Source of the DNA: Roseobacter weihaiensis
GTDB lineage: Bacteria > Pseudomonadota > Alphaproteobacteria > Rhodobacterales > Rhodobacteraceae
DNA: 64,000 bases
Assembly (NCBI RefSeq): GCF_020622345.1
Contig: NZ_JACNMO010000008.1
Span: 124,001-188,000, forward strand
Reading direction: 5' to 3'
How positions within the stretch are numbered: position 1 is the first letter of the stretch; each line of letters opens with the position of its first letter. The translations under genes were made by a program, and so were the position numbers. The notes under the pieces are model-generated. The model worked only from the letters and a program-made list of their open reading frames with translations. It was not told the origin of the DNA and did not search any database. Positions 16,023-30,603 of the stretch are shown here, piece by piece.

Positions 16023-16024
16023 AA
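15978..16024 (+). repeat. attL: 47-bp repeat within tRNA-Asn
   Basis: Starts CTGTTAATCAATTGG in the anticodon loop and ends GGAGCCAAA. The same 47 bases occur at 30557-30603. A direct repeat of a tRNA 3' end flanking an integrase-bearing segment is the classic mark of site-specific integration. Confidence 0.95.
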
Positions 16025-16048
16025 TTTTCACATAGAGAACAATGACTT

Positions 16049-16085
16049 AAAGGCCGCTCTGATGAGCGGCCTTTGTCTTTTTCGC
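16049..16085 (+). terminator. Terminator just inside attL
   Basis: AAAGGCCGCT (16049-16058) and AGCGGCCTTT (16065-16074) pair perfectly with a 6-base loop, then a T-rich run. It would end the tRNA-Asn transcript. A different hairpin sits at the same relative place after the second tRNA-Asn 3' copy. Confidence 0.85.
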
Positions 16086-16088
16086 AGG

Positions 16089-16110
16089 CTCTGCAACAAC
16101 TCTGCAACAA
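16089..16110. repeat. Tandem 11-bp repeat CTCTGCAACAA x2 (left arm-type sites)
   Basis: Two exact copies in a row with an 11-base period, 65 bases inside attL. Near-identical pairs occur at 30415-30437 by the integrase start and, inverted, at 25337-25357 in the candidate origin. The placement fits arm-type binding sites for the integrase or its accessory factor. Confidence 0.75.
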
Positions 16111-16292
16111 TCGCCGCTTTGCAATGAAAACGGGCGGCACCAAAGCACCGCCCGAATTGGATCACAGATCAGGTGAAGCCCACCACCGCCCTTCCATGAA
16201 GATGTACGTCCGACCGTAGAGAGTAAGTCGAACATGACAGTTGCGGTCGAGACCACGGCTGATTGTGCGCAGCCGTTCGCGAACACTCGGGC

Positions 16293-16586
16293 TCATGCTG
16301 CCATCCTCGCTTCGGGCTGTTCGAAGCGAAGAAGGGCTGTCCTCCCTCCGTGACGCAGACGCTCGAATGCGCTCCAGAGTGGCGTTCCCAGCGCAGTGTT
16401 TTGATAGGCAAGACGGAGCAACTCGATGAATTGAGGATCATTGACGACAGAAGTTGCCTCCTCGACCGTCATCTCCTCCGGCGCTGGGAAATCCCCGAAC
16501 AGCGTCACGATTACCTCGCCGTCGTCGTTCGCTTCGAACTCGACATACTCGCACTGGTAGGTCTTTGCATTGAAAGTCATTGGCAT
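16293..16586 (-). CDS. Small acidic protein of unknown function
   Basis: 97 residues (MPMTFNAKTYQCEYVEF...), acidic N-terminal half, no motif I recognise. The reading has normal protein composition, and it diverges from the HTH-bearing gene at 16657 with 70 bases between the starts. GGAAT just upstream is a weak ribosome site. It may be a control gene of element 1. Confidence 0.6.
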   Translation of the reverse strand: MPMTFNAKTYQCEYVEFEANDDGEVIVTLFGDFPAPEEMTVEEATSVVNDPQFIELLRLAYQNTALGTPLWSAFERLRHGGRTALLRFEQPEARMAA

Positions 16587-16656
16587 TTGGTATTCCTTTC
16601 AGGAACTTTGGGTTACGCCTTGTTGGCAAGAACACCATCAACCGGAAGGCACACCC

Positions 16657-17298
16657 ATGGCTAAGCACCTACTTCCAACTACCTGCTTTGAGACTGCCTT
16701 CATCGAATACCTTCGCCTACGATTCGAGTTTGAACCGCTGATGCACTACGCCATGGCGGCACTTCATGTGTGCGATCAGACCAGCCGTGAATACCCGGAC
16801 TTTGTGAAAGGGTTTCTCGCTTGGTTCGCTCCCAGCTTCTTGTTCGACCACAAAGGTGGCTTCCCGGCGCAAGGCCATGCAGCCAACCCTGCGAGCGCAA
16901 GGTGGAGCCGATACGAGGATTGTCATGATCTGCTTGAAGGGTGGCTCAACGACGACCTAGATGCCGCCTTGGTGCGTCAGGAGACGACCTTGATCATAGT
17001 AGAGGAAGTCGAGATCAAAATGACTGAGGATCGAGAAGACGAAAGCGCCGAAGGAAGGAAGCGTGCAATGAGAAAGAAGCCCAAAGGGGTGATATACGGT
17101 GAGATTGCCGACGACTTGGGAATATCGCCCGACACAGTGAAACGCCGGTACGAACGGGCGACGAAGATGCCGGAAGATTTTCTTTCGCACATCCAACCTG
17201 TGGCGCTTTTGAGAACTGACGGTCAGTACACCATAGAGACCCGGGAAGTTGGCAGACCCGGTGAGATAAGGTTTCGACCGGGCAAGAAACTCCGCTAG
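16657..17298 (+). CDS. Unknown element protein with a predicted helix-turn-helix
   Basis: 213 residues from the ATG at 16657, preceded by GGAAGG. The N-terminal 110 residues are rich in aromatics and His (FEPLMHYAMAALHVC) with no known domain. A charged stretch follows, then IADDLGISPDTVKRRY at about 150-165, which reads as a sigma- or resolvase-type helix-turn-helix. Probably DNA-binding. An in-frame start further upstream has no ribosome site. It points into the element from the left end. Confidence 0.68.
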   Translation: MAKHLLPTTCFETAFIEYLRLRFEFEPLMHYAMAALHVCDQTSREYPDFVKGFLAWFAPSFLFDHKGGFPAQGHAANPASARWSRYEDCHDLLEGWLNDDLDAALVRQETTLIIVEEVEIKMTEDREDESAEGRKRAMRKKPKGVIYGEIADDLGISPDTVKRRYERATKMPEDFLSHIQPVALLRTDGQYTIETREVGRPGEIRFRPGKKLR

Positions 17299-17405
17299 TG
17301 AACGAAGCCGCGTAAGCGATTGCCTAGCGCCCCCTTCATGATTGCAATGTGAGGTTGAGGTGTGCCTATCTGGCAAGACCTATAACGCGCAACGGATGAT
17401 CAAAG

Positions 17406-18341
17406 ATGATAAACGAGCAGCCTGTCACGATTTACTTTGATCTAAGAGCCGACGCTCGACCAACCATTGGGTCGATAGGACGCGCTATGGTCGAGTTCGA
17501 GAAAATGGCTGGCGAAGCGATATACTTGCTCGAACCGGGCATTGAGTTTTCACTGGTTTATGAGGCATCGGGTGAAGGTAGCCTAAGGATCATCACAATG
17601 CTCCGAGGTGTGGTCACGCGCGAACGACTGATCACGCTTGCTATTGTTCTGACAACAACCCTATTCAATAATGCCGTGGGTCATTTTCAAGGAAAGGCGA
17701 TGGATGAGGTCATTCAAGCTTTGACCGATGAAAACACCACTTTGACGGACGAGGACATTGCCCGAATTGCAGAAGCCGTTGCAAATGTTGAGCGCTCTGA
17801 GACTGTAAAAGCGCCACGCCGGGAGTTTTACCATGCGGTAGAACAAGATGAGGCGATTACAGGTGTTGCGGCTGTTCCAAATGACAAAGCGGAAAGACCT
17901 TCTGTTATTGTTCCTCGTGAGGAATTTACAGAACGTGCAACCCGCTACACACCTATTGAACCAGATAACACTCCGGAGCCTCGTGTTGTGCCAGAACGGC
18001 TAGAGGTCGTGCTGGTGCAGCCTCCGCTAATTGATAGCAATCGGCAATGGCGACTGTTTGCCAATGGGCATGAATTTGGCGCAAAAATGCTCGATGAACA
18101 TTTCAAGCGGCAGGTCTTAGAAGGCACAACTGACCTTCGATTGGCCGGCGGTGTGATACTGGATATCACGCTTGAAACTACGCAAGTCAATGAAGGCGGT
18201 CTATGGCAAAATAAGTCCTACAGCGTGTCTGAAGTTCATGGCTGGCGGCAAAACCCACAGCAGGCGGATTTGCTACTTTCGCATCGCAGCGATGGCGATG
18301 ATCAGGGCGATCAGAATGACGACGAGAATGGGCCACGCTGA
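17406..18341 (+). CDS. Unknown protein with one possible membrane segment
   Basis: 311 residues. About 1-70 is a mixed domain (TIYFDLRADARPTIGSIGRA), then LITLAIVLTTTLFNNAV at about 80-96 could be a membrane helix. A linker with several Pro and Glu follows (about 130-200), and the C-terminal 100 residues look folded (WRLFANGHEFGAKMLDEHF) with a very acidic tail. No family recognised. Base composition is richer in A+T than the host genes, as expected for element cargo. Its 3' end overlaps a small gene on the other strand. Confidence 0.65.
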   Translation: MINEQPVTIYFDLRADARPTIGSIGRAMVEFEKMAGEAIYLLEPGIEFSLVYEASGEGSLRIITMLRGVVTRERLITLAIVLTTTLFNNAVGHFQGKAMDEVIQALTDENTTLTDEDIARIAEAVANVERSETVKAPRREFYHAVEQDEAITGVAAVPNDKAERPSVIVPREEFTERATRYTPIEPDNTPEPRVVPERLEVVLVQPPLIDSNRQWRLFANGHEFGAKMLDEHFKRQVLEGTTDLRLAGGVILDITLETTQVNEGGLWQNKSYSVSEVHGWRQNPQQADLLLSHRSDGDDQGDQNDDENGPR

Positions 18342-18449
18342 ACCAAAACCAACCCAGTTGATAAGTAGTTGAAGCAACACCACGGCCAGGGCAATCGCGG
18401 AAATTTCCGCGACTAGCTTGATCAGCCGTTTGATGTACTTGTCGTCCAA
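18273..18449 (-). CDS. Small two-helix membrane protein (holin-like)
   Basis: 58 residues from a TTG start, with AGAGG 7 bases upstream. It begins with a charged stretch (DDKYIKRLIKL), then two hydrophobic helices: ISAIALAVVLLQLLI (about 16-30) and WPILVVILIALIIAIAAM (about 39-56), ending RK. That is the size and shape of a small holin or phage inner-membrane peptide. The last 69 bases lie antisense to the end of the 17406 gene. It sits directly downstream of the terminase genes on the same strand. The TTG start and small size keep confidence moderate. Confidence 0.5.
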   Translation of the reverse strand: MDDKYIKRLIKLVAEISAIALAVVLLQLLINWVGFGSAWPILVVILIALIIAIAAMRK

Positions 18450-18522
18450 GGTTGGTTGCCTCTCGCGGTTTTTCGCCAGCCTATGCCAAATTCACTGATA
18501 AATGGTAAGGCTTCTTGTGACG

Positions 18523-19236
18523 TCACCAAAAGCCCCTGAGCGGGGCCTCCCCGATATGTGCGCCGACGCCGCGGTGATCGGACAGCCATAGGGCAAGCGC
18601 GCCAGACACGGCCAAGTCAGCATGGCCGAACTTCGTGCCGCCCTCGATCCGCACACGCCCGGTCGATCCCACATCGGCCTCGAAGCTCTCAAGCTCTTGG
18701 CGCAGGAGGTCGCGGGCCTCGAAGTTGCCGATGGACAGGTCGCCCGTGTGGATCGCCGAGTTCAGCGCCGATAGAAGCCGGGTGCGGCCCACGTTGTTGA
18801 AGGTGCGCCCGCGCTCTTTCGATTCCGTTTCGTTTTCACCAGCCACCATCTGAACGCGGGTGTGCTGGACCGACTTCGAGTCGAGCAAATCACAAAACGC
18901 ACGGCCCACCCCGGAGGAATCCACGACGAGGTAGGCGCGGCTTGCGATAGCCGGATCAATCATCAGGTTCCGGGTCACGATGGCGAGGTCTGCATAGGAC
19001 ATGGCGGGCAAATGATCCGCCCGCACAATCTCGCGGCGGCGCTTGGTCAGTTCCTGCCGCCCATTCGCATCGTAAAAAGGCACGCGCTCGTCGAGCAGGA
19101 TCGAATAGGCGTTGCGGTCCTGAGCCTGTGCAATGTCGAGGCCCACGAGGAAGCGGCGATAGCCTTTGACGATCTCGACCGCCGGGTCCGCGTTCGGCAG
19201 GATCAAGTCCTCGCCCTTTTCAACCAAGGCCTGCAT
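18523..19236 (-). CDS. Terminase large subunit, nuclease part
   Basis: 237 residues resembling the RNase H-like nuclease domain of TerL: FLVGLDIAQAQDRNAYSIL carries the first metal Asp, AYLVVDSSGVGRAFCDLL the second, and FGHADLAVSGALALWL the late Asp region. It would cut phage DNA during packaging. It begins 17 bases inside the ATPase gene, in another frame, and has its own ribosome site (AGGAG). Either TerL is split into two coupled polypeptides or a frameshift joins them. GCCCC/GGGGC with four T residues at the end may terminate the operon. Confidence 0.82.
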   Translation of the reverse strand: MQALVEKGEDLILPNADPAVEIVKGYRRFLVGLDIAQAQDRNAYSILLDERVPFYDANGRQELTKRRREIVRADHLPAMSYADLAIVTRNLMIDPAIASRAYLVVDSSGVGRAFCDLLDSKSVQHTRVQMVAGENETESKERGRTFNNVGRTRLLSALNSAIHTGDLSIGNFEARDLLRQELESFEADVGSTGRVRIEGGTKFGHADLAVSGALALWLSDHRGVGAHIGEAPLRGFW

Positions 19237-20014
19237 AGAGGTCTCCTAATCTGAGTTGGGGTGTGTCGGTGAACGCGGCGGCAATTGCTGCCGAGTCGAA
19301 AAACTGCTGGCCGCGGCCCATCCAGTTCAGGCCGTGTTCTACGTCGAACTCGAACTTGGACAGCACCTTTCGCTGACGCGCGACCAGCTTCGCCATGCGG
19401 GGCAGATCGAGGGAGCAGGCGCGGATGCGTTCGACTTCGGGATACATCTCCCAGTCGCTCCACATCTCATAGGCCTTGCCCGACTTTCCGCCCGGTGTGG
19501 TGATCAGGATTGTCTTCGCGTTGTCTTCGGCAATCGAAAGGGTCGAGCCGAAAACGTCATCGGGGATGAACGCGGCCTCGTCATAGATCAGCAGCCCGTT
19601 TTTGACGCCGTAGCCACGGGCCTGTTCACCGTTTTGGCCCGCCGGAACGCAGACCACGGACGAGCCGTTCTTGAGGTGCAACTCGGTCATGGTGCGCCGC
19701 TTGGTTTCGATGGGCAGCGCCATCCGTTCCCAAGTGAAGGCGATCTTGGCGAACAGCAATTGAGACTGCGGCAACGTCTTTGAAAGGATGATCACCTGAT
19801 GGTCGGGCTTGGACAGTTCCTGGCCTGCCATCACGCCGACGGTGGTCGATTTGCCGATCCGCCGCGACGCCAACACCATGATGATGTCTGAGGCGGAATT
19901 CATCAGCTTGCGCTGCCATTCATCGGGCGGGCCACCGACAACCCGCTCAAGCAGCAGCTCCGGCTTTACCCGCTCGTTGAGCGTGCGGAGGAACAGGCCG
20001 AGATCATTCGACAT
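19220..20014 (-). CDS. Terminase large subunit, ATPase part
   Basis: 264 residues with the packaging-motor ATPase: an adenine-binding DEWQRKLMNS, Walker A-like VLASRRIGKSTTVG at about 47-60, Walker B NGLLIYDEAAFIPDD at about 137-151 and coupling motif LITTPGGKSGKAY. It ends soon after GLNWMGRGQQFFDSAAIAAAF, just where a full-length TerL would pass into its nuclease domain, which is encoded next. It overlaps the upstream gene by 11 bases. Confidence 0.87.
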   Translation of the reverse strand: MSNDLGLFLRTLNERVKPELLLERVVGGPPDEWQRKLMNSASDIIMVLASRRIGKSTTVGVMAGQELSKPDHQVIILSKTLPQSQLLFAKIAFTWERMALPIETKRRTMTELHLKNGSSVVCVPAGQNGEQARGYGVKNGLLIYDEAAFIPDDVFGSTLSIAEDNAKTILITTPGGKSGKAYEMWSDWEMYPEVERIRACSLDLPRMAKLVARQRKVLSKFEFDVEHGLNWMGRGQQFFDSAAIAAAFTDTPQLRLGDLYAGLG

Positions 20015-20615
20015 CGAGCGGAATCCGCCGGTCTGTCACCACCTGATGGAAGGTCTCGAACGCCTCCGGGTGCGCGTTGAACACCACCCAAAGCACATCC
20101 ATCAGCTTTTGGACGTCCGGGTGTTCGTTCAGTCCAAGCACGATGGTCGTCTTGTCGCGCAGATTGGAATAGACCTTGAGCAGGTTCTCATAGGATTTGT
20201 TCTGATCCCGGAGCAACTGCATCATCGGGGACAGCACATCGAGCAGGTTCTCGCCTTCCACCATATCGTTGAGGGTCCGATACAGCCGCTTCTGCTCCTT
20301 GAGGATTCCTTCAATGCCGCCTTCGATCTTGTCTTGGGCGCTGTTCACTTCCTGATCGAGCGAGGTGGCATCCAGCTTGTTCGCCTCCACCAGCACGATC
20401 TTCTCGACCTCTGGCGTGATGAACCGCTTGCGAAACCTAGTCAGGCTTTCGAGATCGACGCAGCACCTTTGGGCGATCTCCTTGAACTGGCGGCGGCGCA
20501 GCACGCAGTCGAGAACAACCTCAACCACGTCTGACCGGGCGCGGATGGTAGAGCGGCGACCGTTGCCCGATTCCACGGGCAAGGCCTCCTTGATGCGGTC
20601 ATAGTTGATGGTCAT
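20004..20615 (-). CDS. Small-terminase-like DNA-binding protein
   Basis: 203 residues starting MTINYDRIKEALP. A helix-turn-helix-like stretch (RRRQFKEIAQRCCVDLESL) lies at about 38-56, followed by long helices with coiled-coil character (about 75-150). Position directly before the large terminase and the HTH-plus-helical layout fit a terminase small subunit, which recognises DNA to be packaged. I infer this from context; sequence similarity to a named TerS is not evident. The start at 20615 overlaps the previous stop as ATGA. Confidence 0.6.
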   Translation of the reverse strand: MTINYDRIKEALPVESGNGRRSTIRARSDVVEVVLDCVLRRRQFKEIAQRCCVDLESLTRFRKRFITPEVEKIVLVEANKLDATSLDQEVNSAQDKIEGGIEGILKEQKRLYRTLNDMVEGENLLDVLSPMMQLLRDQNKSYENLLKVYSNLRDKTTIVLGLNEHPDVQKLMDVLWVVFNAHPEAFETFHQVVTDRRIPLDVE

Positions 20616-20875
20616 GCGGCAGCCCGCCAGCCTGTCGCCGTGCGCCCGGCCAGTTCGACCATGTGCGGGGCCATCCGGCCAATGACACGCCGCGCGTCCG
20701 GCCCATAGATCGGGTGATCCGCAACGTCGCGGATGAAGTCGGGTTCTTCCGCCGAGAACAGGCAATCGAGAATGGCGTTGCGGGCGAGGGTCACGTCGAA
20801 CTCACGCACGGTGCGATAGGTGCCCGCCAAAAACTCGCGGGCCGTTGCGTCTGCGGCCTTGGCGAGATCATTCAT
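20612..20875 (-). CDS. Unknown small protein in the packaging operon
   Basis: 87 residues (MNDLAKAADATAREFLAGTY...). Largely helical, with ARNAILDCLFSAEEPDFIRDV in the middle. No family recognised. It overlaps its neighbours by 4 and 8 bases, so it is translated as part of the same operon. Confidence 0.68.
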   Translation of the reverse strand: MNDLAKAADATAREFLAGTYRTVREFDVTLARNAILDCLFSAEEPDFIRDVADHPIYGPDARRVIGRMAPHMVELAGRTATGWRAAA

Positions 20876-21248
20876 CGGACACGATCTCCAAGGTTGTGCC
20901 CGTCTTCTCGGCCTGTGCCTTGGCGCGGCGATAGAGGGCGGCGTCACGGGCCTGCACACGGGTCAGGCGTATCGGTTCCGGGTTGAGGGCATCCTTGATC
21001 GACGCTGGGTCGCCTTTGCGTTCGAGCAGGGTCTTGAGTTGGCCGGCCTCGGCCTGTTCCTTCGCGGCGACTTCCGCTGCCGCCCGCTTCTGATCCTTGA
21101 TCTCGTCGAGCATTTTTTCGGCATTGGTTTTCAGCCCGCCGATCTGATCTTCGATCTGCTTCGAGACCTGTTCCGTCAGCGCCTCAAGCAGCTTGGGCGT
21201 CGCCTTCTCGATGAATTGCTCCATCAGGCGGTCGTTGTCCTCAGACAT
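20868..21248 (-). CDS. Coiled-coil protein, scaffold-like
   Basis: 126 residues from the ATG at 21248, which has AAGGAG at the right distance; another ATG 6 bases upstream is too close to that site. The first 85 residues are a charged coiled coil (LLEALTEQVSKQIEDQIG, then KDQKRAAAEVAAKEQAEA), followed by a short basic segment. It could be a scaffold, a head-size redirecting factor or a packaging accessory protein. No family assigned. First gene after a hairpin, so it may start its own transcript segment. Confidence 0.62.
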   Translation of the reverse strand: MSEDNDRLMEQFIEKATPKLLEALTEQVSKQIEDQIGGLKTNAEKMLDEIKDQKRAAAEVAAKEQAEAGQLKTLLERKGDPASIKDALNPEPIRLTRVQARDAALYRRAKAQAEKTGTTLEIVSDE

Positions 21249-21257
21249 GTGCATCTC

Positions 21258-21318
21258 CTTCACGTTCGCACAAAAAGAAAGGCAGACCCGGAAGCCCGCC
21301 TTTCTCCTGAACGTGAAG
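21258..21318 (-). promoter_or_regulatory. Nested hairpin with terminator core upstream of the packaging operon
   Basis: Outer arms CTTCACGTTC (21258-21267) and GAACGTGAAG (21309-21318) enclose an inner stem AGAAAGGC/GCCTTTCT. On the minus strand the inner stem is followed by TTTTTG, a terminator. The outer stem ends inside the AAGGAG ribosome site of the next gene, so folding could also hide that site. It separates the portal segment from the terminase segment. Confidence 0.65.
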
Positions 21319-21415
21319 ATCTGCGCGACGCCCGGTCTGCACGATCACAATAAGTTCCTGCAATTGCTCAATAAAGAACAGTATCAGGTGCTATGGGAGA
21401 AAGACCTAAAGTAGG

Positions 21416-22036
21416 TCAGGCCGCCGCCAGAACGTAGGTATGGTTTTCTGCGTTTCTGACGATCTCGCCCTTGTTGATGGCATTCGCGAGAACCTTGCGG
21501 ATAGCAGCATCACCAAATTCACCATCGGTGGCGTGGATCAAATCTCGGAACTGGCGCGGTTCAGCCAGCAGGGGCAAGACGGCTGAACGGATCGTGGAAT
21601 AACTCGCTTTTACATTCCGGCGCGGCGCGGCCAGTTTCGCGGCCTTCTGCCTGAGCCTTTGCTTCTGCGCCCGTGCGGGTGCCGCTTCTTCCGCTGCCCA
21701 CAACTCGCGCGCCGCGTCGATGCCGCCAAAGGTGCTGCGATGATCGGCACCGATGATCTCACGTCCAGCCAGCACGCGCAGGATGTTCGACCGGAGATCG
21801 TCTGGATCGAGGCCCGCCGCGTCACACAGGCTGCGCCGTGACTCCGCCCATGCGCCTCGTTCGCGGGTCAGGAAATAGAGCGCCTCGCGCCGTGCAAGCT
21901 GTGCCTCATCCTGTTCGGAGGCTGGGATCACCTTGCCGAACAGGTCAAGTACCGACCGCGCGACGACCGCGCGGTAGAGTGATTGTGCGCCGTTGGGCTG
22001 TGAGTCGTTCAGGCCGAAGTCGGGGTCTATGATCAT
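21416..22036 (-). CDS. Unknown phage-type protein downstream of portal
   Basis: 206 residues. The N-terminal part (ALYFLTRERGAWAESRRSL, then CDAAGLDPDDLR at about 70-82) resembles a conserved helical region I associate with prophage proteins of alphaproteobacteria; the middle is basic and Ala-rich (about 115-145) and the C-terminus may be a winged helix (AIRKVLANAINKGEIVRN). It could bind DNA. It overlaps the portal stop by 1 base and precedes the terminator hairpin. Confidence 0.65.
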   Translation of the reverse strand: MIIDPDFGLNDSQPNGAQSLYRAVVARSVLDLFGKVIPASEQDEAQLARREALYFLTRERGAWAESRRSLCDAAGLDPDDLRSNILRVLAGREIIGADHRSTFGGIDAARELWAAEEAAPARAQKQRLRQKAAKLAAPRRNVKASYSTIRSAVLPLLAEPRQFRDLIHATDGEFGDAAIRKVLANAINKGEIVRNAENHTYVLAAA

Positions 22037-23382
22037 CAGACATCCCGCGTGCCGACGATGGGAGAAATGTCGCCCCCGTCCTCGTCGATCATGTCCTTCT
22101 CATCTTCCCACGAGCGATCCGCGCGGACGATCTCGCCCTTTTGCAGGTTCTCATGTAGCGAGGCGCGGCTGATGATCCCAGACAGATACAGCTTCATTTG
22201 CTGCTCGATCATCTTCGGCTCCATCGCGCTTTCGATGAAGTCCCGCGACAGGGTCACGGAGGCCTCATCAGGATCATCACCTACCCATTCAGCAGCAAGG
22301 CGCAGAAGGCGGTTAAGACCGGCCTCGACGGACACAACGACACCATGCAGGAGCGCAAGCTCTGACCGCGTGCGCTGCGTCGCTGTGCCGAGCGTCTCGT
22401 TGCGGTTCACGGTCGAAGACAGCATCCGCGCGCCCAGCGAGATCATCGTTTCGGATTTCTCCTCCATGATCTCCTTCATTGCCGCGACACCGGCTCCCGT
22501 GAATTCCAGCATCCCGACTTCCGTGCCTTCGGGCAGCGTCCAGACAGCGCCTGATCCGATTTGCGTTGGCACCTTGTTCGCCGGGATCGACCCAGCCACC
22601 CACGGCGTCGGGCTGGCCGTCAGGAAGATGGCGTGTTCCCGATCCGCGCTGTTCTTGAAGTGCGAGATCGCGACCTTGCAGAGCGACAGGAACGGCGGGC
22701 TGACATGCTCCGGGCGCAAGCCTTCGTGGCTGACCATCAGAAACGGGATATAGTCGAGCGGCTTGCCGTTGATCGTCGGGATATGGTTCTCGCCCACATC
22801 GACACGGGTTTTGTGCTGGTCCCGGATGAAGCGCCGGAACTGATAGACACCGGCCTCAAGGATCAATTCGTAGGTGACGTCTGACCCCTCCCAATCCTCG
22901 TCCGAGGCCAGATGCACGCGGGTCAGCACCTTCCGCCCGTCAACGAAGCCCGTGGAGAAGTCTTCGATGGTTTCGGCTTGGAAGGTCGAGATATGAGGCA
23001 CGGCATTCGCACGCGCGCCATCTGCCGGAAAGTCGAGCAGGATGCCGAAGCGCCCCATCGTTGCGACCTCGCGCACCATGTCCTCGACAAGCACCTGCAT
23101 CGGAGCGTTCTCATAGGTCGCGTTCAGACGCATCGGTTCGAGGCGCGGCGGCAGCTTGATCACGGGGTCTTTGCGCAGGGCCAGACCGACAAGCGCGCGC
23201 AAGGTCATCTCGGGCGCACCGTAGAAGCAGGCCCGGTCGAGATAGTGAGTGTAGTTTTGCGCCGACATGCCTTCGGGTTTCGGGACATACAGTTGCCCCT
23301 GATTCTTCACTGCATCCTCGCCGTCGAGGCAGTCACGGATAAGATGATACTGGCCTTGCAGGCGGTCCCAGTGCTTGCTCAT
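22036..23382 (-). CDS. Phage portal protein, DUF4055 family
   Basis: 448 residues; the portal ring sits at the head vertex and is the channel for DNA packaging by the terminase. The sequence follows the DUF4055 pattern: an N-terminal YLDRACFYGAPEMTLRALVG, MGRFGILLDFP, then the long helix ISLGARMLSSTVNRNETLGTA. Ring-building regions look complete and the frame is open. Finding a portal without any capsid gene nearby is unusual. It overlaps the upstream small gene as ATGA. Confidence 0.85.
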   Translation of the reverse strand: MSKHWDRLQGQYHLIRDCLDGEDAVKNQGQLYVPKPEGMSAQNYTHYLDRACFYGAPEMTLRALVGLALRKDPVIKLPPRLEPMRLNATYENAPMQVLVEDMVREVATMGRFGILLDFPADGARANAVPHISTFQAETIEDFSTGFVDGRKVLTRVHLASDEDWEGSDVTYELILEAGVYQFRRFIRDQHKTRVDVGENHIPTINGKPLDYIPFLMVSHEGLRPEHVSPPFLSLCKVAISHFKNSADREHAIFLTASPTPWVAGSIPANKVPTQIGSGAVWTLPEGTEVGMLEFTGAGVAAMKEIMEEKSETMISLGARMLSSTVNRNETLGTATQRTRSELALLHGVVVSVEAGLNRLLRLAAEWVGDDPDEASVTLSRDFIESAMEPKMIEQQMKLYLSGIISRASLHENLQKGEIVRADRSWEDEKDMIDEDGGDISPIVGTRDV

Positions 23383-23651
23383 TCCGCTGCCTCCAATACC
23401 AGCCCAAGCAGGTGGCGATAAGGCAGTTCGAAACGACCGCCGCCTGCCTGAACGCGCAGCCCATCGCGGCTGCGGTCGATCATGACGGCATCGACCGTCA
23501 CGTCGCGCTGTTCCGGGTTGAGCAGCAGTTCACGCAGGCCGGATTGCAGGGCCTGCTTCGAGATCGGGATGGAAAAGGCTGTCGATGAAGAAACGGTTTT
23601 CTGGGCGAGCGTGCAGGCCGCGTCACCATCCGCAGTGAAAGTGATTTGCAT
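23379..23651 (-). CDS. Unknown small protein before portal
   Basis: 90 residues starting MQITFTADGDAACTLAQ. It looks like a small beta-rich domain (VDAVMIDRSRDGLRVQAGG). First gene of the packaging run. The ribosome site is weak (AAAGAAAG). A longer upstream reading has poor composition and would run into the divergent SIR2 promoter region. Confidence 0.6.
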   Translation of the reverse strand: MQITFTADGDAACTLAQKTVSSSTAFSIPISKQALQSGLRELLLNPEQRDVTVDAVMIDRSRDGLRVQAGGGRFELPYRHLLGLVLEAAE

Positions 23652-23929
23652 GGGTTGATGCTTTCTTTGTGGGTGAACGGCCATCCGAAAGGAACGTCGC
23701 GCGAAAGATGGCCGTTCAGGAGAGCCAAGCCGCGCATGTCGAATGTGGGCGGACGCCGCCGGGGCACTCAACTCATGTTTAAGGTGCAGGACGTTGTTCG
23801 CGCTGGGTAAATCAGGTGCCACCCATCAATGTGGAAACCGCTGTTGCAACTACCAGTAGTTTCGTCGTTCCATGTGTTCAGCCGACCTTCCACACTAGGA
23901 CCACCAAATCAGAAAGTGAGTGCATTAAG

Positions 23930-25231
23930 TTGAGCGAGTATTTTGAGATTGCATACGCCGCCGCTGCCAAGCGTCTATGCATTTTTACCGGGACGGGCTT
24001 TTCGAAAGCTCTGAGCGAAAACAACGCCCCAGGCTGGCAGGAATTGCTCGAAGCAATCTGTGATGAACACGTAGAAAACGATGAGTTCAAGGAAGCGCTT
24101 TTTCCAGCGGATGGCCTGCCGTCACTACAACTAGACGAAGCAGCGCAAGTTATAGGTATCGAACTCTCCAAGAATGGAAAGTCAATACACGACGAAATCG
24201 CCAAGCTAATATCAGATATCGAACTTTCTGGCTCCTACCCTGAGACCGAGAAGTTTTTAAAAGAGCGGTCTTATCGAATTGTAACTACAAACTATGATAA
24301 ATTGGCCGAGACCTTGGCAGAGGATGACTGCCAATCTCTCTCTCCGGGCCGCCCAATTCCACGCTCAAACAGCCGAGTAAAGACTTTCCATGTGCACGGT
24401 TCGATTGAGGTACCTCGTCGGATGGTCGTCACTGCTGATGACTATTTCAATTTTATGAATTCCGAAGCGTACTTTTCCCGAAAGCTAAGTACTGTCCTGC
24501 ATGAGAATACCGTGGTCATTCTCGGTTACTCTCTAGGGGACACTAATCTCAAGGCAATCTTAAGCGATTATCGAGGTTTCGTTCGAAGTCACACCGTCAG
24601 TAATAGCATCTTTCTAATTTCAAGGGGATCGGTCGATCAGAGGATCGTTGATTACTATTCAAACTGTTATGGCATCAGAGTTATTCAGGAGACAGAAGTA
24701 GAGGAGTTTTTTGCCAACACAAACGCCAAGATCGAGGAAGCCGAAGACTGTTTGGAAAAATCAGTCAGAAACATCACCAAAGTCCTATACGACAAGCACC
24801 ACTTCAAAGAGAAATACCTACAGGCCGAGAGCTCTTTTTACCAAATTGTATCGGCAATCGGCGCTATTGGGGCAAGTCTTGAAGAGGATGCTGTTGTCGA
24901 TACCTTTGCAGATATCATTTCTAAGAAGAAGGAGATGACCAGTAAAACGGGGGCATGGCCACAGTATGTCCAACTCGCCTCATGGCTCACTTACTTGGGT
25001 AGCTTAATAGACGTTCGAGATACTTCCGTTGAGAAAATCTATTTGGACGCTGTCAAATTTTCGATGGAGAAAATGAGTAAAGGCATGGTTTTGGGCTACT
25101 CATGGCACGCGTATAAGGTTTGGGATGCGCGGTGGTCTAGCCTGACAGCGGACAATCGCTCCCTTGTAGCAAAGCACATTAAGGAGAAATCTAGTGATCC
25201 TGATGCAGCTGAGATCGTTGCGCGCGCCTAG
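23930..25231 (+). CDS. SIR2-domain protein, probable anti-phage cargo
   Basis: 433 residues from the TTG at 23930; in-frame GTG starts at 23816 and 23831 are possible. The N-terminal half is a SIR2 (NAD-binding) domain: IFTGTGFS at about 18-25, VTTNYDKL at about 117, HVHGS at about 152 and ILGYSLGDTNLK at about 197. The C-terminal half is helical with no known domain. SIR2 proteins of this layout deplete NAD+ in several phage-defence systems (Thoeris, DSR, SIR2-HerA); no partner gene for those is here. Composition is clearly more A+T-rich than the adjacent packaging genes, and it is the only plus-strand gene in this part, so it is probably swappable cargo. Confidence 0.8.
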   Translation: MSEYFEIAYAAAAKRLCIFTGTGFSKALSENNAPGWQELLEAICDEHVENDEFKEALFPADGLPSLQLDEAAQVIGIELSKNGKSIHDEIAKLISDIELSGSYPETEKFLKERSYRIVTTNYDKLAETLAEDDCQSLSPGRPIPRSNSRVKTFHVHGSIEVPRRMVVTADDYFNFMNSEAYFSRKLSTVLHENTVVILGYSLGDTNLKAILSDYRGFVRSHTVSNSIFLISRGSVDQRIVDYYSNCYGIRVIQETEVEEFFANTNAKIEEAEDCLEKSVRNITKVLYDKHHFKEKYLQAESSFYQIVSAIGAIGASLEEDAVVDTFADIISKKKEMTSKTGAWPQYVQLASWLTYLGSLIDVRDTSVEKIYLDAVKFSMEKMSKGMVLGYSWHAYKVWDARWSSLTADNRSLVAKHIKEKSSDPDAAEIVARA

Positions 25232-25602: not shown

Positions 25603-28600
25603 TTACCGATACTGCGCGCCGTGCCACGGCCATACTGCTGGCTGTGTCTCTGCCGCCAGCGCATCAGCGTCGATCTCCCAGCCCTCAGCCGTTGTCACCG
25701 TTCCTGTAAACACCGTACCGTCCTCATCAAGCCAAGGCTCACGCTCGAATGCTTCACGCAACTCCCGCACTTCCTGCATGTGCCGCGACGCATCCTGCAT
25801 GGCAGTGAACCGCTCAGCATTGTCGTCTTTACGCCGCACAGGTTCCCGCCAATCGACGATCTCCAACCGATCACACAGATACCGCCAACCGCCTTCTGCG
25901 ATCCAAGCGCGCCGCCAATGATTGTCACCGCGCATCCTCACCTCAATGAACTCGGCCCGACGATCCATCGCCCAGCCGAACAGATCGCCCAGCCCCTGCT
26001 TGATCCCATTCGGTGACATGCCCGCAAACCTGCGGAACAACATCTGCGCCATCTTAGGCGTGCCGACGCGCACCGGCGCACGCGCATACTCCAACTCGTC
26101 TGGCAGCAGGTCATTGAACCGCTGCACCTCGTCCACCTTCACAGGCAACACCATGTTGGTGAATAACCTGATCTCGCAGCCCTGCCGCACATGCCGCGCG
26201 CGCGCCGCCGCTTGCATCATAGCACCTTCACAGACGACCCAGCGCACATCTTCAACGCGCGGATCGGTGTGGCGTTCGCACCATGCCATGCCAGCTCCCC
26301 CGACCATCGCAATCGGACGCTTCGGATACCATTGCACGACCGGCACAATCGGATCGCCGTCCTGATGGATAGCGCGGGCCATATCCTCAACGTCCTGAGG
26401 TGCAGGCAATGGCCGACCAACAATGTCGATCTTGCCACCGGCCCAGTCGTTCAGCCCCTCCACGGCATTGAACCAGCCCGCGAGCATCATGTTCTCGTCT
26501 ATAAGCGCCTTATAGGAGAACAGGTGCCGCCCCTCTGAAATACGCGCCACGTCTGCCCGGAACTGTTCTGCCCGCGCCTTGTCTTTCTTGTCCGTCTCGT
26601 CCCATTCCTCGACGCGGTCGCCGGTGCCATAGAGCAGGGATTTCTTCGACGTGTTGATGGGAACCTGAGTCACCTTCGCGTCTGCGTGCTTTTCAACCTC
26701 GATGGAAACCCATTCATCCACCGGCAACACGGCTTCAACCATCGACCGCTTTATGGTCGCAGACAGGATCAGCACAGGCACGCGCGGGCGGTTGGTTTCC
26801 TTGTCCCACGGGATGCCCGCAATCTTCTGCCTCCAGTTCAGAAAGACGCCCTTCTTGTTCGGCGTGACGCGGAGGCGATTGAGTGAGCCAGCCTCAAGCG
26901 CGTCGCGCAGGCGCCGCCAGAACGAGGCATACTTATACCACTGCCCATCGTAGTCGGTCGCCGCGTTCAGCGCCTCGCTGGCTGACATGTCGGGCGTGAT
27001 CTCGACCTCCGGCGCAAGTTCAGTCTCCGCCTTGATCAGTTCCTTGCAGACATCGACCGTGAACCCGGCCCCCTCAAGCCGTTCGATGGTCAGGCCGTCC
27101 TTGAACACTTTGGCCAGCCGGAGCAGCCATTCGCCCATGTCGTGGCGCATCACGTCGCACAGGTCTTTGATCTCGACATAGCCGTCCTTGATCAGCGCGC
27201 CGAGAAAGTTCTCGTCGATCACGACGAAGTTCGGCACGCGGCTTTGTCCGTGTTCCTTGGCGATCTGAATGGGCAGGTGGGCATGGGTGCGGATGCGCAG
27301 ATCATGGGTCAGCGAATTGTCGTGCAGTTCCCACCACAAGCAGCCAGGTCGGTCAGAACACTGCGCCACCTCGTTGCCGCAGAACGCTTTGCGGGTTTCC
27401 TTCACAATCCCCTGAACCTTCGAGATCGCTTCATGCTTCGTGCAGACCGATCGCCCGTGCAACTCTTGGCTGCGACCAAGCTCCGTGTAGGCGGTCATGC
27501 CGTGCGAGCGGGCGTCCGCTTCGATCTGTGCGGAAAGGTTGTGATTAGGCACATAGAGGTCGGTGAAGAAGATGCCGTTGGTGTGTTCGGCATATCGGGT
27601 TTCGACGCCGAGCCAGTGAAGCGCCCAATAGGTTTTGCCAAGACCGGCCTCAGCCTCGATAACCTTCACGCCCGGCTCCTGCGCTGCAACAAAGGTCTTG
27701 ATCTCGTCACTGAGCCGCTGCGTAGCTTGATCGAACGGCACTTCCTGCCGCGTCGTGGGGAACGCCTTACGCCTGCGCCGTGCGCCGCGTATCTTGTGGT
27801 AGCGGGCCTTGATGTATCGCTCATCGAAATCGTGCCTGTCTGCCGCGCGCACGCCTAGCCGCTCATACTCGCCGGACAATGCGGCCCAGCACTCGGTGAA
27901 GACGCTCTCGGGAAATGCGGTGCGATAGGCGATCATAAAATTCAGAATGCAATTGTGGCGCTGACTTGCATCCCAACGCAACGTGGGCATCTGCCCTAAA
28001 TTGACAGAAGGTGCTACTTCAACTTCGATCATGTCGGGCAGCTTAGGCACATCGACAGGCCCAGCGATGCCTTCGACCAAGTGTGCGCGCACAGGATGCG
28101 GATCATCTAGGCCGCGAAGTTCGGGTCTCGCCGTGAAGACAAAGCCGCCCGGCTTGTAGATTCCATAGTCGATCAGTTTCCGGTCGGACCCGATGCGCTG
28201 CGAAAGGTCAGCGTTCCAATGCTCCGCATGGATTTGCTGCTCGGTCAGGTCCATCGGTTCGACTTCGAACGCGACCCGGAGGCGATGGCCTGACTTAAAG
28301 CCCGACGACGGCGAGAACGCATAGACAAACCGACGACCGCGCAGGAATGGGAAGGCAAAGCGCACCGCTTCTTCGGCAGTCCCGTCATATTCCATTGAGT
28401 CGAGATCAACGACGAATAAGCTGGTGGCAGTGTCAGTGAAGTCGAGACCCGTTCGCCCGCCGCGTTCGATCAATGGTTCGCCAAGAACCAGTGATGCTGT
28501 AGGCACATCTGAAAGTCGGTTCAGGAGGTCACAAACACCGATGAGCGTACCAACGTCGTGCCGCTCATAAATGAAGTCCTTGGCATACCGATAGCCTTCG

Positions 28601-28689
28601 GAACGCTCATCCTGCTCCGGGCCATTGTCGCCCGCCCGCCAGACCTTTCGAAGGTCTGGGCCGGTACTTGTTGCTGTAAATATATGCAT
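25603..28689 (-). CDS. PrimPol-helicase fusion, replication protein of element 1
   Basis: 1028 residues. The N-terminal third looks like an archaeo-eukaryotic primase (PrimPol): catalytic DLD at 95-97 (FVVDLDSM) and SGH at 133-135. A helicase follows with Walker A EAGLGKTYW (about 347-355) and a DEAH-type box VVIDENF (about 489-495). Between them four Cys (416, 437, 444, 450) sit where XPD/DinG helicases hold a 4Fe-4S cluster, so an iron-sulfur helicase is likely. Later motifs include SATIKRSMVEA (about 650). It should prime and unwind DNA at the adjacent origin. The ribosome site is AAGAAG before ATG 28689. Confidence 0.78.
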   Translation of the reverse strand: MHIFTATSTGPDLRKVWRAGDNGPEQDERSEGYRYAKDFIYERHDVGTLIGVCDLLNRLSDVPTASLVLGEPLIERGGRTGLDFTDTATSLFVVDLDSMEYDGTAEEAVRFAFPFLRGRRFVYAFSPSSGFKSGHRLRVAFEVEPMDLTEQQIHAEHWNADLSQRIGSDRKLIDYGIYKPGGFVFTARPELRGLDDPHPVRAHLVEGIAGPVDVPKLPDMIEVEVAPSVNLGQMPTLRWDASQRHNCILNFMIAYRTAFPESVFTECWAALSGEYERLGVRAADRHDFDERYIKARYHKIRGARRRRKAFPTTRQEVPFDQATQRLSDEIKTFVAAQEPGVKVIEAEAGLGKTYWALHWLGVETRYAEHTNGIFFTDLYVPNHNLSAQIEADARSHGMTAYTELGRSQELHGRSVCTKHEAISKVQGIVKETRKAFCGNEVAQCSDRPGCLWWELHDNSLTHDLRIRTHAHLPIQIAKEHGQSRVPNFVVIDENFLGALIKDGYVEIKDLCDVMRHDMGEWLLRLAKVFKDGLTIERLEGAGFTVDVCKELIKAETELAPEVEITPDMSASEALNAATDYDGQWYKYASFWRRLRDALEAGSLNRLRVTPNKKGVFLNWRQKIAGIPWDKETNRPRVPVLILSATIKRSMVEAVLPVDEWVSIEVEKHADAKVTQVPINTSKKSLLYGTGDRVEEWDETDKKDKARAEQFRADVARISEGRHLFSYKALIDENMMLAGWFNAVEGLNDWAGGKIDIVGRPLPAPQDVEDMARAIHQDGDPIVPVVQWYPKRPIAMVGGAGMAWCERHTDPRVEDVRWVVCEGAMMQAAARARHVRQGCEIRLFTNMVLPVKVDEVQRFNDLLPDELEYARAPVRVGTPKMAQMLFRRFAGMSPNGIKQGLGDLFGWAMDRRAEFIEVRMRGDNHWRRAWIAEGGWRYLCDRLEIVDWREPVRRKDDNAERFTAMQDASRHMQEVRELREAFEREPWLDEDGTVFTGTVTTAEGWEIDADALAAETQPAVWPWHGAQYR

Positions 28690-28802
28690 CTGCTTCTTTC
28701 TTGCAGACGCTATTACCTTGTTTTTCAGTCGGATTCCATCAAAGCGTGATGTATAAGCGAGTTGTTGATGCGATGGGTTCGCTGCTTTGTTGAAAACGAC
28801 AG

Positions 28803-28835
28803 AGGGACGAGGTTCTAGCGGCTTCGTCCCTTTTT
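28803..28835 (+). terminator. Hairpin with T run between excisionase and PrimPol genes
   Basis: AGGGACGA (28803-28810) pairs with TCGTCCCT (28824-28831), followed by a T run on the plus strand. Both neighbours are on the minus strand, so the T run would stop an antisense transcript; the stem can still act weakly on the minus strand, downstream of the excisionase gene. Confidence 0.55.
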
Positions 28836-29095
28836 CAGTTCACGCGATGAGAACGCGCCCAATCGAGAACGTCCTCCCGATCATACAGGATTGTCCGGCT
28901 GGAAATGTGCAGGAACGGCGGGCCGCTTTGTGCGCCTGCGTTGCGCTCTTTGCGCCAGAGGTAAAGCACCTCCTCCGAGCGGTTCAGGTATTCCGCACAT
29001 TGCGCAGGCGTCATGAGTTCAGGCAGCTTTTGCTTGACCTGCAAGGTGCGCAACTCATCGCGCAGCGCACGGATTTCTTGTGTGATTTGGTCCAT
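28835..29095 (-). CDS. Excisionase/AlpA-like helix-turn-helix protein
   Basis: 86 residues. After a helical N-terminus (EIRALRDELRTLQVKQ), MTPAQCAEYLNRSEEVLYLWRK and later ILYDREDVLDWARSH give the winged helix of the excisionase/HTH_17 family (table-of-contents motif: AEYLNRS, then a W-containing recognition helix). Such proteins direct excision or activate satellite genes. GAAGGAG lies ahead of the start. It is 146 bases from the integrase gene on the same strand. Confidence 0.8.
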   Translation of the reverse strand: MDQITQEIRALRDELRTLQVKQKLPELMTPAQCAEYLNRSEEVLYLWRKERNAGAQSGPPFLHISSRTILYDREDVLDWARSHRVN

Positions 29096-29241
29096 CGACA
29101 GGCTCCTTCACGTTCAGAATAGACGCAGGCCTGTTGATATGCTGGCGGATGCCTTCATACGATCCGGCACCAGCCCCTGATGGATCGAATATGGTCACGC
29201 CGGTTTGTTCTGCCGCACAGCGACACCGACGCGCGGCCACA

Positions 29242-30450
29242 TTAGCGCCTGCCTCCGATCTGGACAACATTCGAAGAAGGTACTGACCCGCATTCCACCT
29301 CAATCTGTTTGGCGATGGCGTTCGCGTCCTTGTGGGACATGGACCCTTGGTCATAGAGATCCTGCACGCCCTTCTCCATGTCACCGCGCAACTGGTCGAT
29401 GATGTAGGACGGCAGGCGCAGGCGACGGGCGGCAGTCGTGAACAGGCGGCGGGCATCGTGCGGCGTCATGCGGACGCCATCCCCTTTCAACTGCTGCGGA
29501 TGGAAAATGTGCTTTTCCGTGTCGTGCTGTGGGAAGACCCACTCGCTATGCCGGGGCAGCGCCCGTAGCGCCGCGACAACGCGGTCAGCGATAGGGAATG
29601 CCCCTTCCGTCCCGTTCTTCAATTCAGCGACGCGCAGACGGGCGCTGTCGAGGTCAATGTCGGCCCAGCGTAGTTCGGTCACGTTCTTGGCGCGAAGGCC
29701 CGTGAACAGCATTACCTCCCAAGCCGTGCCGATAATCAGGTTGTGGGCCTTCTTTGCGTAGATCAGGTCAAGGGCGGGCCATGCTTCGTCCACGTCGAAC
29801 TTCACCTTGTTGTTCCGCGCCCGGTATTTCACCTTTTTGAGCGCGTCGGCTACGTTCGGGATGCGGCGAACAACAGACGCCCGTTTAAACGCCGTGCCGA
29901 TGATCTGGCGCAGGTGCTGCTGCGTCGAGGTCGGCTTGCCGTTGCCATCGACATAGGGCGCAAGGGCGCGTTCAAGGTCCGGCAGTGTCAATTCGTCAAT
30001 GGGTCGGTCGAACAGCTTGGCAAGGTGACGCTCGATCTGCTCGCGGTAATAGGTCTTCGTCCGCTCTGATGCGTCTGACTGTTCGATATGGGAATCCATC
30101 GCGTTGCGCAGCGTGTGGATGCCCGTCGAGCGGTCGTCTGTTCGGGTCGTGATAGCCTCCATCTTTTCCTTCGCCACATCGCGGGCGGCGTAGACGGTGG
30201 GCAGGTCGGGCCATGCGCCCAGCGTGACCGAGCGCACCTTGCCGTCGATGCGCTTCGATAGCACCCACGTCTTCTTAGTGGCTCCGACAGCAAGGCGGAT
30301 ACCGCGAGCGTCGGGATCGGGTTTCACCGATGGGTCAGAATACATGATAGTGTTGCCCGGTGCGTGCTTGATCTTCGCAATGGCCGGGCGTGTGGTCAGG
30401 TTTTGGTTAGGCATCTCTGCAACATCCTCTGCAACATTCAGTGAGGACAT
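29242..30450 (-). CDS. int: Tyrosine recombinase (integrase) of element 1
   Basis: 402 residues. Catalytic residues are visible: Arg in LFTGLRAKNVTELRW (about 255), His-x-x-Arg in MTPHDARRLF (about 342-345) and the Tyr nucleophile in GVQDLYDQGS (about 377). A core-binding SAM-like domain occupies about 110-190. The N-terminus resembles the arm-binding domain of P4-type integrases (VRSVTLGAWPDLP). An alternative start at 30414 (MPNQNL) would leave the CTCTGCAACAT repeats just upstream rather than inside the gene. It lies at the end distant from the intact tRNA-Asn. Confidence 0.93.
   Translation of the reverse strand: MSSLNVAEDVAEMPNQNLTTRPAIAKIKHAPGNTIMYSDPSVKPDPDARGIRLAVGATKKTWVLSKRIDGKVRSVTLGAWPDLPTVYAARDVAKEKMEAITTRTDDRSTGIHTLRNAMDSHIEQSDASERTKTYYREQIERHLAKLFDRPIDELTLPDLERALAPYVDGNGKPTSTQQHLRQIIGTAFKRASVVRRIPNVADALKKVKYRARNNKVKFDVDEAWPALDLIYAKKAHNLIIGTAWEVMLFTGLRAKNVTELRWADIDLDSARLRVAELKNGTEGAFPIADRVVAALRALPRHSEWVFPQHDTEKHIFHPQQLKGDGVRMTPHDARRLFTTAARRLRLPSYIIDQLRGDMEKGVQDLYDQGSMSHKDANAIAKQIEVECGSVPSSNVVQIGGRR
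30415..30437. repeat. CTCTGCAACAT x2 (right arm-type sites)
   Basis: Exact 11-base copies at 30415-30425 and 30427-30437, period 12, at the integrase start. A further inverted core (GTTGCAGA) lies at 30489-30496. Same motif as at 16089-16110. If the integrase starts at 30450 the repeats encode VAEDVAE and are read through; if at 30414, they form its upstream control site. Confidence 0.7.
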
Positions 30451-30556
30451 GTTCGGTTCTATACCGGTGGTTGCACAACTTGTTTTTCGTTGCAGAACAG
30501 TGCTTTACCTTATTTTACTGATCAAATACGGCGACCCACCCTTGGCGAGTCGTTCC

Positions 30557-30603
30557 CTGTTAATCAATTGGTCGTAGGTTCGATCCCTACCGCCGGAGCC
30601 AAA
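30557..30603 (+). repeat. attR: 47-bp tRNA-Asn 3' copy
   Basis: Exact copy of 15978-16024. It lacks the tRNA 5' half, so it is not a tRNA gene. It marks the right end of element 1 and the left end of element 2. Confidence 0.95.

Follow-up and report, generated by a model that had tools for sequence, protein, structure and literature searches.

How might a mobile element be packaged when it brings the portal of a phage head and the motor that fills it, without a recognizable shell? This question is raised by an element in the chromosome of the marine bacterium Roseobacter weihaiensis. The window, that is, the whole stretch of DNA analyzed here, comprises 64,000 nucleotides (nt) of contig NZ_JACNMO010000008.1 (positions 124,001 to 188,000, forward strand), and the element occupies positions 15968-30603 of it (14.6 kb). 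We read this element as a phage satellite that would place the coat and tail of an R5C-like helper phage around its own portal, its own scaffold, and its own two-polypeptide large terminase subunit (TerL). A probability of roughly 0.77 was assigned to this reading. Other loci are designated by L numbers and genomes by G numbers.

The packaging operon and its relation to R5C-type phages

Read from the integrase end on the minus strand, the integrase, AlpA-like, and 1028-residue replication protein genes are followed by an oppositely oriented SIR2 gene. After this comes a tight operon in the order g11-portal-g9-scaffold-like-g7-TerS-like-TerL ATPase-TerL nuclease (TerS, small terminase subunit), and then a variable right arm. 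The operon is made up of the following genes.

23379..23822, minus strand: g11, a small conserved protein overlapping the portal gene
22036..23382, minus strand: portal protein (DUF4055; PF13264 at 2e-32, phrog_145 at 2e-98)
21416..22036, minus strand: g9, 206 residues, with a winged-helix-like C-terminal half by weak profile matches
20868..21263, minus strand: short scaffold-like protein with an R5C-type C-terminal tail (phage-only tail profile, E = 3e-10)
20612..20959, minus strand: g7, a small protein overlapping the scaffold gene, present in 9 element sequences
20004..20606, minus strand: TerS-like protein, start chosen after the g7 overlap
19220..20014, minus strand: TerL ATPase half (phrog_7579 at 6e-26)
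18523..19236, minus strand: TerL nuclease half, ATG start, 17-nt overlap with the ATPase gene (phrog_27743 at 1e-28)

The scaffold-like protein was compared with phages by profile. In stretches of R5C, R26L, and Pan1, the satellite scaffold profile found their scaffold proteins only (the R5C scaffold is identified by phrog_206 at 8e-51), and the significant part was the last ~31 residues. This tail scored 36 to 42 bits in the three Nanhaivirus scaffold ends; the ends of 11 control scaffolds, which are related to that of R5C or come from other DUF4055 phages, did not exceed 3.1 bits. The best shuffled control reached 10.8 bits, compared with 38.8 bits for the real sequence (5000 shuffles, 4878 reported). 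A tblastn search of the short scaffold against all phages, which is too insensitive for this purpose, gave one chance match at E = 5.

In phages, the tail goes with one type of coat. Among 59 phage loci, a tail-bearing scaffold and an R5C-type coat gene were found together in 18 and neither was found alone; in these 18, the coat gene lay 16 to 99 bases downstream of the scaffold. The remaining 41 loci had neither in the stretch read. The positive loci had been fetched by portal (nine) or by the motif of portal-less satellites (six) or were reference phages (three); none was obtained through the coat. A tail profile built from the 18 phage proteins only was then applied to 3162 open reading frames (ORFs) of 27 elements, and it matched the scaffold-like gene in 26 of them, the weakest at 1e-5, with the sole other ORF listed at 0.15. 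By these matches, the satellites carry, without a recognized coat, a scaffold end that in phages accompanies a single coat type. Since the tail is tied to the R5C-type coat and no coat gene was recognized in the element, the satellite probably nucleates the coat of a Nanhaivirus-like phage.

The portal points to the same phages. Its closest phage relatives are the Nanhaivirus portals of Pan1 (47%), R5C (45%), and R26L (44%), and a profile of satellite and Nanhaivirus portals matched the solved portal 8xb5 at 1.6e-65. In the portal tree, one branch (support 100/98) separates 17 satellite portals from 25 phage portals. The distant phage RcTitan stands on the phage side, the long rows L033 and RcTitan being placed with uncertainty. 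The genome holds two HK97-type coat genes elsewhere, which would suit a resident gene transfer agent or an HK97-coat prophage as the source of heads in place of an R5C-like phage; such a helper is hardly credible, as portal kinship and scaffold tail both indicate R5C-type phages.

The motor appears to have a different ancestry. The family profile of the ATPase half matched T4 gp17 and 4zni at 2e-16 to 4e-17, and that of the nuclease half matched the TerL nuclease structures 5tge, 5m1q, and 5m1f at 5-7e-6. Nuclease residues D34, D106, and D207 are invariant in all 13 aligned rows, and the GKS motif of the ATPase is kept. At 13 ATPase/nuclease junctions, the earliest start available to the second gene (12 ATG, 1 TTG) falls within the first one, with an overlap of 8 to 38 nt, which makes a programmed frameshift joining the two genes unlikely. 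The second gene is in the +1 frame in 10 junctions and in the +2 frame in three (L004, L028, and L032), the shift in L004 being accompanied by an altered end of the ATPase half. These counts omit L029 (a single 311-residue ORF over parts of both halves), L030 (contig edge), L127, and L137.

When TerS-like and TerL profiles were run against the terminases of R5C and Pan1 (the R26L terminase was not included), nothing was found below E = 0.04; acquisition of TerL from the helper is thus not supported. Relatives of the split TerL were found in other phages, and terminase genes on small plasmids. The split itself recurs in six viral contigs of 12.6 to 43.8 kb (L044-L049), and in L044, portal-like and head-morphogenesis-like ORFs were seen by eye beside it. 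For the TerS-like protein of the window, no match was obtained by tblastn in the phage and plasmid collections or by pattern scan in the viral contigs. A further member of the satellite family, on a Rhodobacteraceae megaplasmid (L166), suggests that divergent TerS-like copies escape such searches.

As a side observation, two small plasmids from other phyla, L163 (pSR11, 11.2 kb) and L164 (Streptomyces virginiae, 16.3 kb), carry an annotated terminase and, next on that strand, a distinct ORF (231 residues in L163, 299 in L164). Both have primase genes, and neither has an annotated portal or coat. It is possible that they are plasmid-form satellites with their own motor.

Element ends, cargo, and the search for a coat

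Outside the operon, the element and its target contain the following features.

15948..16022, plus strand: tRNA-Asn (gtt), the integration target (ARAGORN and Rfam)
15968..16024, plus strand: attachment-site repeat inside the tRNA, left end in the window (57-nt direct repeat)
30547..30603, plus strand: attachment-site repeat, right end (repeat core the same in L002, L003, L004, and L008)
29242..30450, minus strand: tyrosine integrase (PF00589 at 3e-12, phrog_1 at 4e-31)
28835..29095, minus strand: AlpA/excisionase-like regulator (HTH_17 at 2e-5, just below the curated cut-off; phrog_66 at 4e-6)
25603..28689, minus strand: 1028-residue replication protein, a primase-polymerase (PrimPol)-helicase by motifs only (DLD at residue 95, GLGKT at residue 349)
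23816..25231, plus strand: SIR2-domain protein in the first cargo bay (PF13289 at 1e-22; PADLOC SIR2-type models)
17406..18341, plus strand: right-arm gene, 311 residues, LAPAL family (NF053583 at 2.4e-25)
16570..17298, plus strand: right-arm gene with a weak helix-turn-helix and a homolog in L003
16293..16586, minus strand: 97-residue ORF near the end of the right arm, with no family in Pfam- and PHROGs-type scans

The 57-nt direct repeat is the 3' part of the tRNA-Asn gene, and its two copies are 93% identical and spaced 14,579 nt apart. In a preliminary description made from the sequence, the locus had been called a satellite at tRNA-Asn with an integrase, an excisionase-like protein, a portal, and a split TerL, and the repeat and the family matches bear this out. 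Other assignments in that description fared less evenly. The scaffold function of the 20868..21263 protein is now supported by tail homology. The TerS-like protein is still named from its place, its size, and its helix-turn-helix and coiled-coil look only, with no convincing database family. The PrimPol-helicase retains its DLD and GLGKT motifs, and Pfam assigns it no family.

Profile comparison of the replication protein with the recognized primases at the same place in relatives did not link them (probability 0.1). Archaeo-eukaryotic primases occupy this position in L005, L027, and L032, and the window's replication-protein family was found in 7 of the 17 element sequences searched. By its gene content, the element is an integrative element with its own predicted integration and replication genes and without a recognized full set of virion genes, as expected of a satellite in general.

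In a congener (L162), an exact search of 17 kb found the repeat core once, as in an empty site. In a congener, a ~14.1-kb element at the same tRNA-Asn repeat (L161:1549-15654) has an integrase, two AlpA-like genes, and an 802-residue ORF, and the packaging profiles gave no match in it. A different 14.9-kb insertion occupies the same repeat in L160.

No coat, protease, neck, tail, or lysis family was recognized in the window element by Pfam, PHROGs, or NCBIfam (the last run on 10 genes). An 18-row profile of the R5C-type coat had no match among the unassigned conserved genes, and the coat proteins of R5C and RcTitan found nothing at E < 0.1 among the ORFs of 15 elements. The preliminary description, which had seen no capsid, protease, tail, or lysin, therefore holds for these scans, with the label of the LAPAL gene as a caveat. 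The conserved unassigned genes are small, with median lengths of 91 (g11), 109 (g7), 129 (scaffold), 201 (g9), and 207 (TerS-like) residues. In the family search, g11 was found in 15 of the 17 element sequences searched; among the portal-bearing elements that were read, it was not found in L032, L033, L127, and L137.

A coat gene might nevertheless hide in one of the unassigned genes, in which case the element would be a capsid-forming satellite. The candidates are g9, which at 206 residues has no family, and the 311-residue LAPAL gene, which is labeled as a putative phage structural protein. However, the C-terminal half of g9 shows weak profile matches to winged helix-turn-helix regulators, and L002 has no intact copy. 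Nor does g9 match the R5C-type coat profile, other coat families being covered by the Pfam, PHROGs, and NCBIfam scans only. The N-terminal part of the g9 family resembles small proteins on two phage contigs (1e-15 and 4e-14). As for the LAPAL gene, the window's element was the sole one of the 17 sequences searched to contain it. The LAPAL family was found in 9 of 198 family genomes (own genome included), and three of its four other contexts have transposases, transporters, and metabolic genes nearby, according to Pfam-scanned neighbors, some of which have no family. The window copy had no match in phage records and is read as cargo. Finally, a scaffold tail tied to a foreign coat type would make little sense beside a different coat of the element's own. 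A hidden coat is thus considered unlikely.

Conservation across Rhodobacterales

Beyond the window, the portal search retrieved seven loci from named records, which belong to Tritonibacter, Sulfitobacter, Pseudophaeobacter, Roseobacter, Roseovarius, and, in two cases, other Rhodobacterales; L002 and L003 are from Tritonibacter horizontis and Sulfitobacter sabulilitoris strains. Within the bacterial family, 14 of 295 genomes (counting the own genome) had portal matches; of these 14, G177 and G248 show a weak or partial portal and lack the other genes, and G144 and G214 have broken or cut portals. Searching with the TerL nuclease half gave matches, some of them partial, in 26 of 394 family genomes (about 7%, counting the own genome) and in 4 of 385 genomes of the class, own included.

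Seventeen portal-bearing elements were read (the window, L002-L008, L026-L030, L032, L033, L127, and L137). The operon is common to all of them, with the exceptions that L030 is cut by a contig edge, L002 lacks an intact g9, and L029 has a shortened TerL. Attachment repeats lie in six kinds of tRNA gene (tRNA-Asn, -Gly, -Lys, -Thr, -Arg, and -Ala). Left out of the element counts were L031 and L036, with broken or cut portals (a weak 10.5-kb repeat in L031 was not used). L034 and L035 (weak or partial portal matches, other genes absent) and L138-L140 (parts of the set only) were set aside. Contigs L023-L025, L125, and L136 duplicate L003, L005, L008, L004, and L006, respectively. In one genome, two portal-bearing elements lie 33 kb apart (L032 and L033).

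From one attachment repeat to the other, 18 measured elements (14 with and 4 without a portal) span 13,497 to 15,926 bases, with a coefficient of variation of 4.4%; the portal-bearing ones measure 13.8 to 15.9 kb. The repeat was searched for and not found in L007, L027, L030, L126, and L128, and L129, L131, and L134 were not included in the measurement. The replication proteins and both cargo bays vary between elements and the size hardly does, as would be expected if packaging limits size.

The SIR2 gene in the variable bay of the window is probably antiphage defense cargo. Different probable defense genes were observed in the bays at window positions 23816-25231, L005:18107-19516, L028:14740-16623, and L002:15067-16503, the kinds being SIR2, type II methyltransferase, restriction-helicase, and candidate PDC-M36A. 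Such SIR2-type and restriction-type cargo links these satellites with phage defense. It could even be argued that the element is mainly a defense island, spread by its integrase or by general transduction, in which the portal, scaffold, and TerL proteins would serve as decoys and poison the head assembly of the helper. The probable defense genes in the bays would fit this, as would a scaffold tail that binds the coat of an invading phage. However, the element's own TerS-like gene, the conserved active-site residues of TerL, and the constant size of ~15 kb point to self-packaging, so that a decoy role is regarded as quite improbable.

The element is under selection. Ratios of nonsynonymous to synonymous substitution rates (dN/dS) against four relatives were 0.04 to 0.14 for the portal, 0.05 to 0.15 for the TerL ATPase, and 0.07 to 0.12 for the TerL nuclease, all values being rough because dS exceeded 1 in many pairs. 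For the scaffold, the ratio was 0.04 to 0.23 against three relatives and 0.73 against the most distant one (L008), and for g9 it reached 0.52 against L008.

Decay of a prophage that lost its head and tail genes would also leave portal, scaffold-like, and terminase genes, which are phage genes. Damaged copies do occur: L031 and L036 have broken portals, L029 a shortened TerL, and L132, one of the measured elements, a transposase inserted inside the TerS-like gene. Yet the 17 portal-bearing elements, though integrated at six types of tRNA gene, have the same reduced order, a single branch divides the portals, dN/dS is low, and size is uniform. In addition, the frames in the window are intact, and no relative has a recognized coat. 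Decay is therefore very improbable, and the view of the preliminary description that the element is not simply decayed was strengthened. The comparison that it had proposed, a search for the same gene order between attachment repeats in other Rhodobacterales, gave these 17 elements. A full prophage at the site in related genomes, set beforehand as a refuting outcome, was found in none of the relatives read, which have the same short order. A Nanhaivirus prophage remnant in particular was rejected: the satellite portals lie on the other side of the branch, dN/dS is low, and TerS and TerL are unlike the R5C and Pan1 terminases.

A sister group seems to manage without a portal gene. Nine loci (L126 and L128-L135), some of them on cut contigs, have scaffold, TerS-like, and split-TerL genes and no portal-profile match at E = 1e-3. 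No Pfam portal family was found in nine other ORFs from seven of these loci. These elements may use the portal of the helper. Their scaffolds carry the tail motif internally, followed by a C-terminal extension that often ends around DDLP, and one such scaffold had no tblastn match in phages. A portal-bearing and a portal-less element are adjacent in one genome (L125/L126). In L028, the scaffold (L028:11363-11944) was observed to continue beyond the tail motif into another region that ends in DLPEG, as if intermediate between the two types of scaffold.

Proposed assembly and known satellites

The portal and the scaffold tail match Nanhaivirus-like phages, and TerS and TerL do not, which allows a probable group of helpers to be named. 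When a virulent siphophage of the Nanhaivirus-like group (a relative of R5C, R26L, or Pan1) infects the cell, the element would be excised via its integrase and AlpA-like protein and would replicate by its own replication protein. The short satellite scaffold would bind the P22-like coat of the phage through its C-terminal tail, which is either a copy of the end of the phage scaffold or common to both scaffolds, and would compete for the R5C-type coat by analogy with CpmB. Scaffold and satellite portal would initiate procapsids that combine the helper's coat with the satellite's portal and are probably smaller than the prolate head of the helper; the shorter scaffold may give small round heads. 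The TerS-like protein and the two-polypeptide TerL would then dock on the satellite portal and pump in ~15 kb of satellite DNA, presumably with specificity for it, and the neck and tail proteins of the helper would attach to the portal, giving a particle capable of transfer. Alternatively, several copies may be packaged in full-size heads, as inferred for phiAH14b (PMC4936722), because five 15-kb copies equal about one R5C genome. The preliminary description had proposed that foreign heads are redirected at the portal vertex; this is now refined, with portal and scaffold tail pointing to a Nanhaivirus-like helper for the predicted particles.

R5C is described as lytic, with a prolate head measuring 114 x 70 nm and neither an integrase nor a repressor gene, although its base composition led the authors to raise a temperate strategy as a possibility too (PMC5454422). 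The R5C-type coat was found in 0 of 388 family genomes in a search run without a positive control, which fits a virulent helper.

Several points weigh against an R5C-like helper and a satellite that builds on its coat. At full length, four of the 11 control scaffolds score 17 to 23 bits in the coiled-coil part, because of which only the tail match was counted as specific. The 59 phage loci include overlapping contigs and R5C twice (L037 and L052), and six of the 18 positive ones came from the motif of portal-less satellites. Many of the 41 negative loci end before the head genes, so that mainly the 11 with a known scaffold are informative. L033 is the single element without a tail match. In the portal-less group, the motif is internal, so that a free end may not be required for its action. 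With midpoint rooting, the root of the portal tree lies within the satellites, which makes "clade" status dependent on the root. The gene at 17406-18341 bears the NCBIfam name "LAPAL motif-containing putative phage structural protein" (NF053583), and the fourth of the other LAPAL contexts (L177, outside the Pfam scan) has a satellite-type replication-protein ORF ~8 kb away and is not plainly chromosomal. Helper and satellite were not seen together in any of the 388 family genomes, and no record ties a Nanhaivirus to a satellite host. Pattern scans of viral contigs for the portal, TerL nuclease, TerS-like, and TerL ATPase genes gave no family satellite, so that no virus-fraction sequence shows packaging. 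The particles, the induction, and the transfer proposed here are predictions from sequence.

Phage-inducible chromosomal islands (PICIs) carry an integrase and AlpA-type regulators, and the external scaffold of P4 is Sid. Staphylococcus aureus pathogenicity islands (SaPIs) use the portal and TerL of the helper; the window element, judged by its genes, differs in carrying its own portal and both TerL halves. Likenesses to SaPIs and PICIs are the element's own integrase, a size of ~15 kb (PMC4936722), and the TerS of some SaPIs (PMC10690885). A precedent for the scaffold is CpmB of SaPI1, a small alternative scaffold whose C terminus shares the coat-binding motif of the scaffold of helper 80-alpha; its C-terminal helix-and-hook binds the 80-alpha coat much like the helper scaffold (PMC5644958). 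The window scaffold shares its end with those of R5C-type phages at the sequence level. Capsid-forming PICIs resemble the element in having their own portal, TerS, and TerL and in depending on helper tails, a dependence proposed here from gene content. They also encode a coat, a head protease, and connectors (PMC10690885), none of which was recognized in the window element, which on this count does not appear to be one of them.

The Streptomyces satellites Mulch and Flayer have their own terminase, portal, and scaffold and parasitize virulent phages; they differ in having a coat protein and a head-tail adapter as well and no obvious replicase (PMC10690885). P4-like satellites share the integrase, the AlpA-like regulator, the primase, and the redirection of helper coat by a scaffold, whereas P4 itself depends on the terminase of P2 for its packaging and employs Sid (PMC10690885, PMC4936722). 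General family scans named no Sid, Psu, or Delta in the window element; no direct comparison with P4 proteins was made. The PICMIs of Vibrionaceae are likewise marine satellites of virulent phages, reported to have a reduced gene content and no capsid remodeling genes (PMC10803314).

No satellite that combines portal, scaffold, and terminase genes with the lack of a coat was found in the part of the open literature searched, nor any paper on phage satellites of Rhodobacterales; subscription papers and outside preprints were not covered. The satellites described there either use the head of the helper or supply a complete one, whereas the family described here brings portal, scaffold, and motor without a recognizable shell. 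We lean toward regarding it as a new class, in which an own portal and a helper-type-tailed scaffold would nucleate the chimeric head of a virulent phage, an own two-polypeptide motor of different ancestry would fill it, the tail motif would be a code for the coat type of the helper, and the lineage would be split into portal-bringing and portal-borrowing members. The scaffold tail indicates which shell the satellite probably wants, and the association of tail type with coat type offers a sequence rule for predicting satellite-helper pairs. The family also offers a named helper group for marine bacteria and a natural split terminase.

A further likeness is seen in phiAH14b of Pseudomonas, a 16.8-kb satellite with integrase, AlpA-like, and primase proteins; it differs in that no terminase or structural genes were identified in it, and full-size heads of the helper probably package it in the form of trimers (PMC4936722). 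Its helper, AH14a, has a protein that shows kinship with the scaffold of R5C (38%).

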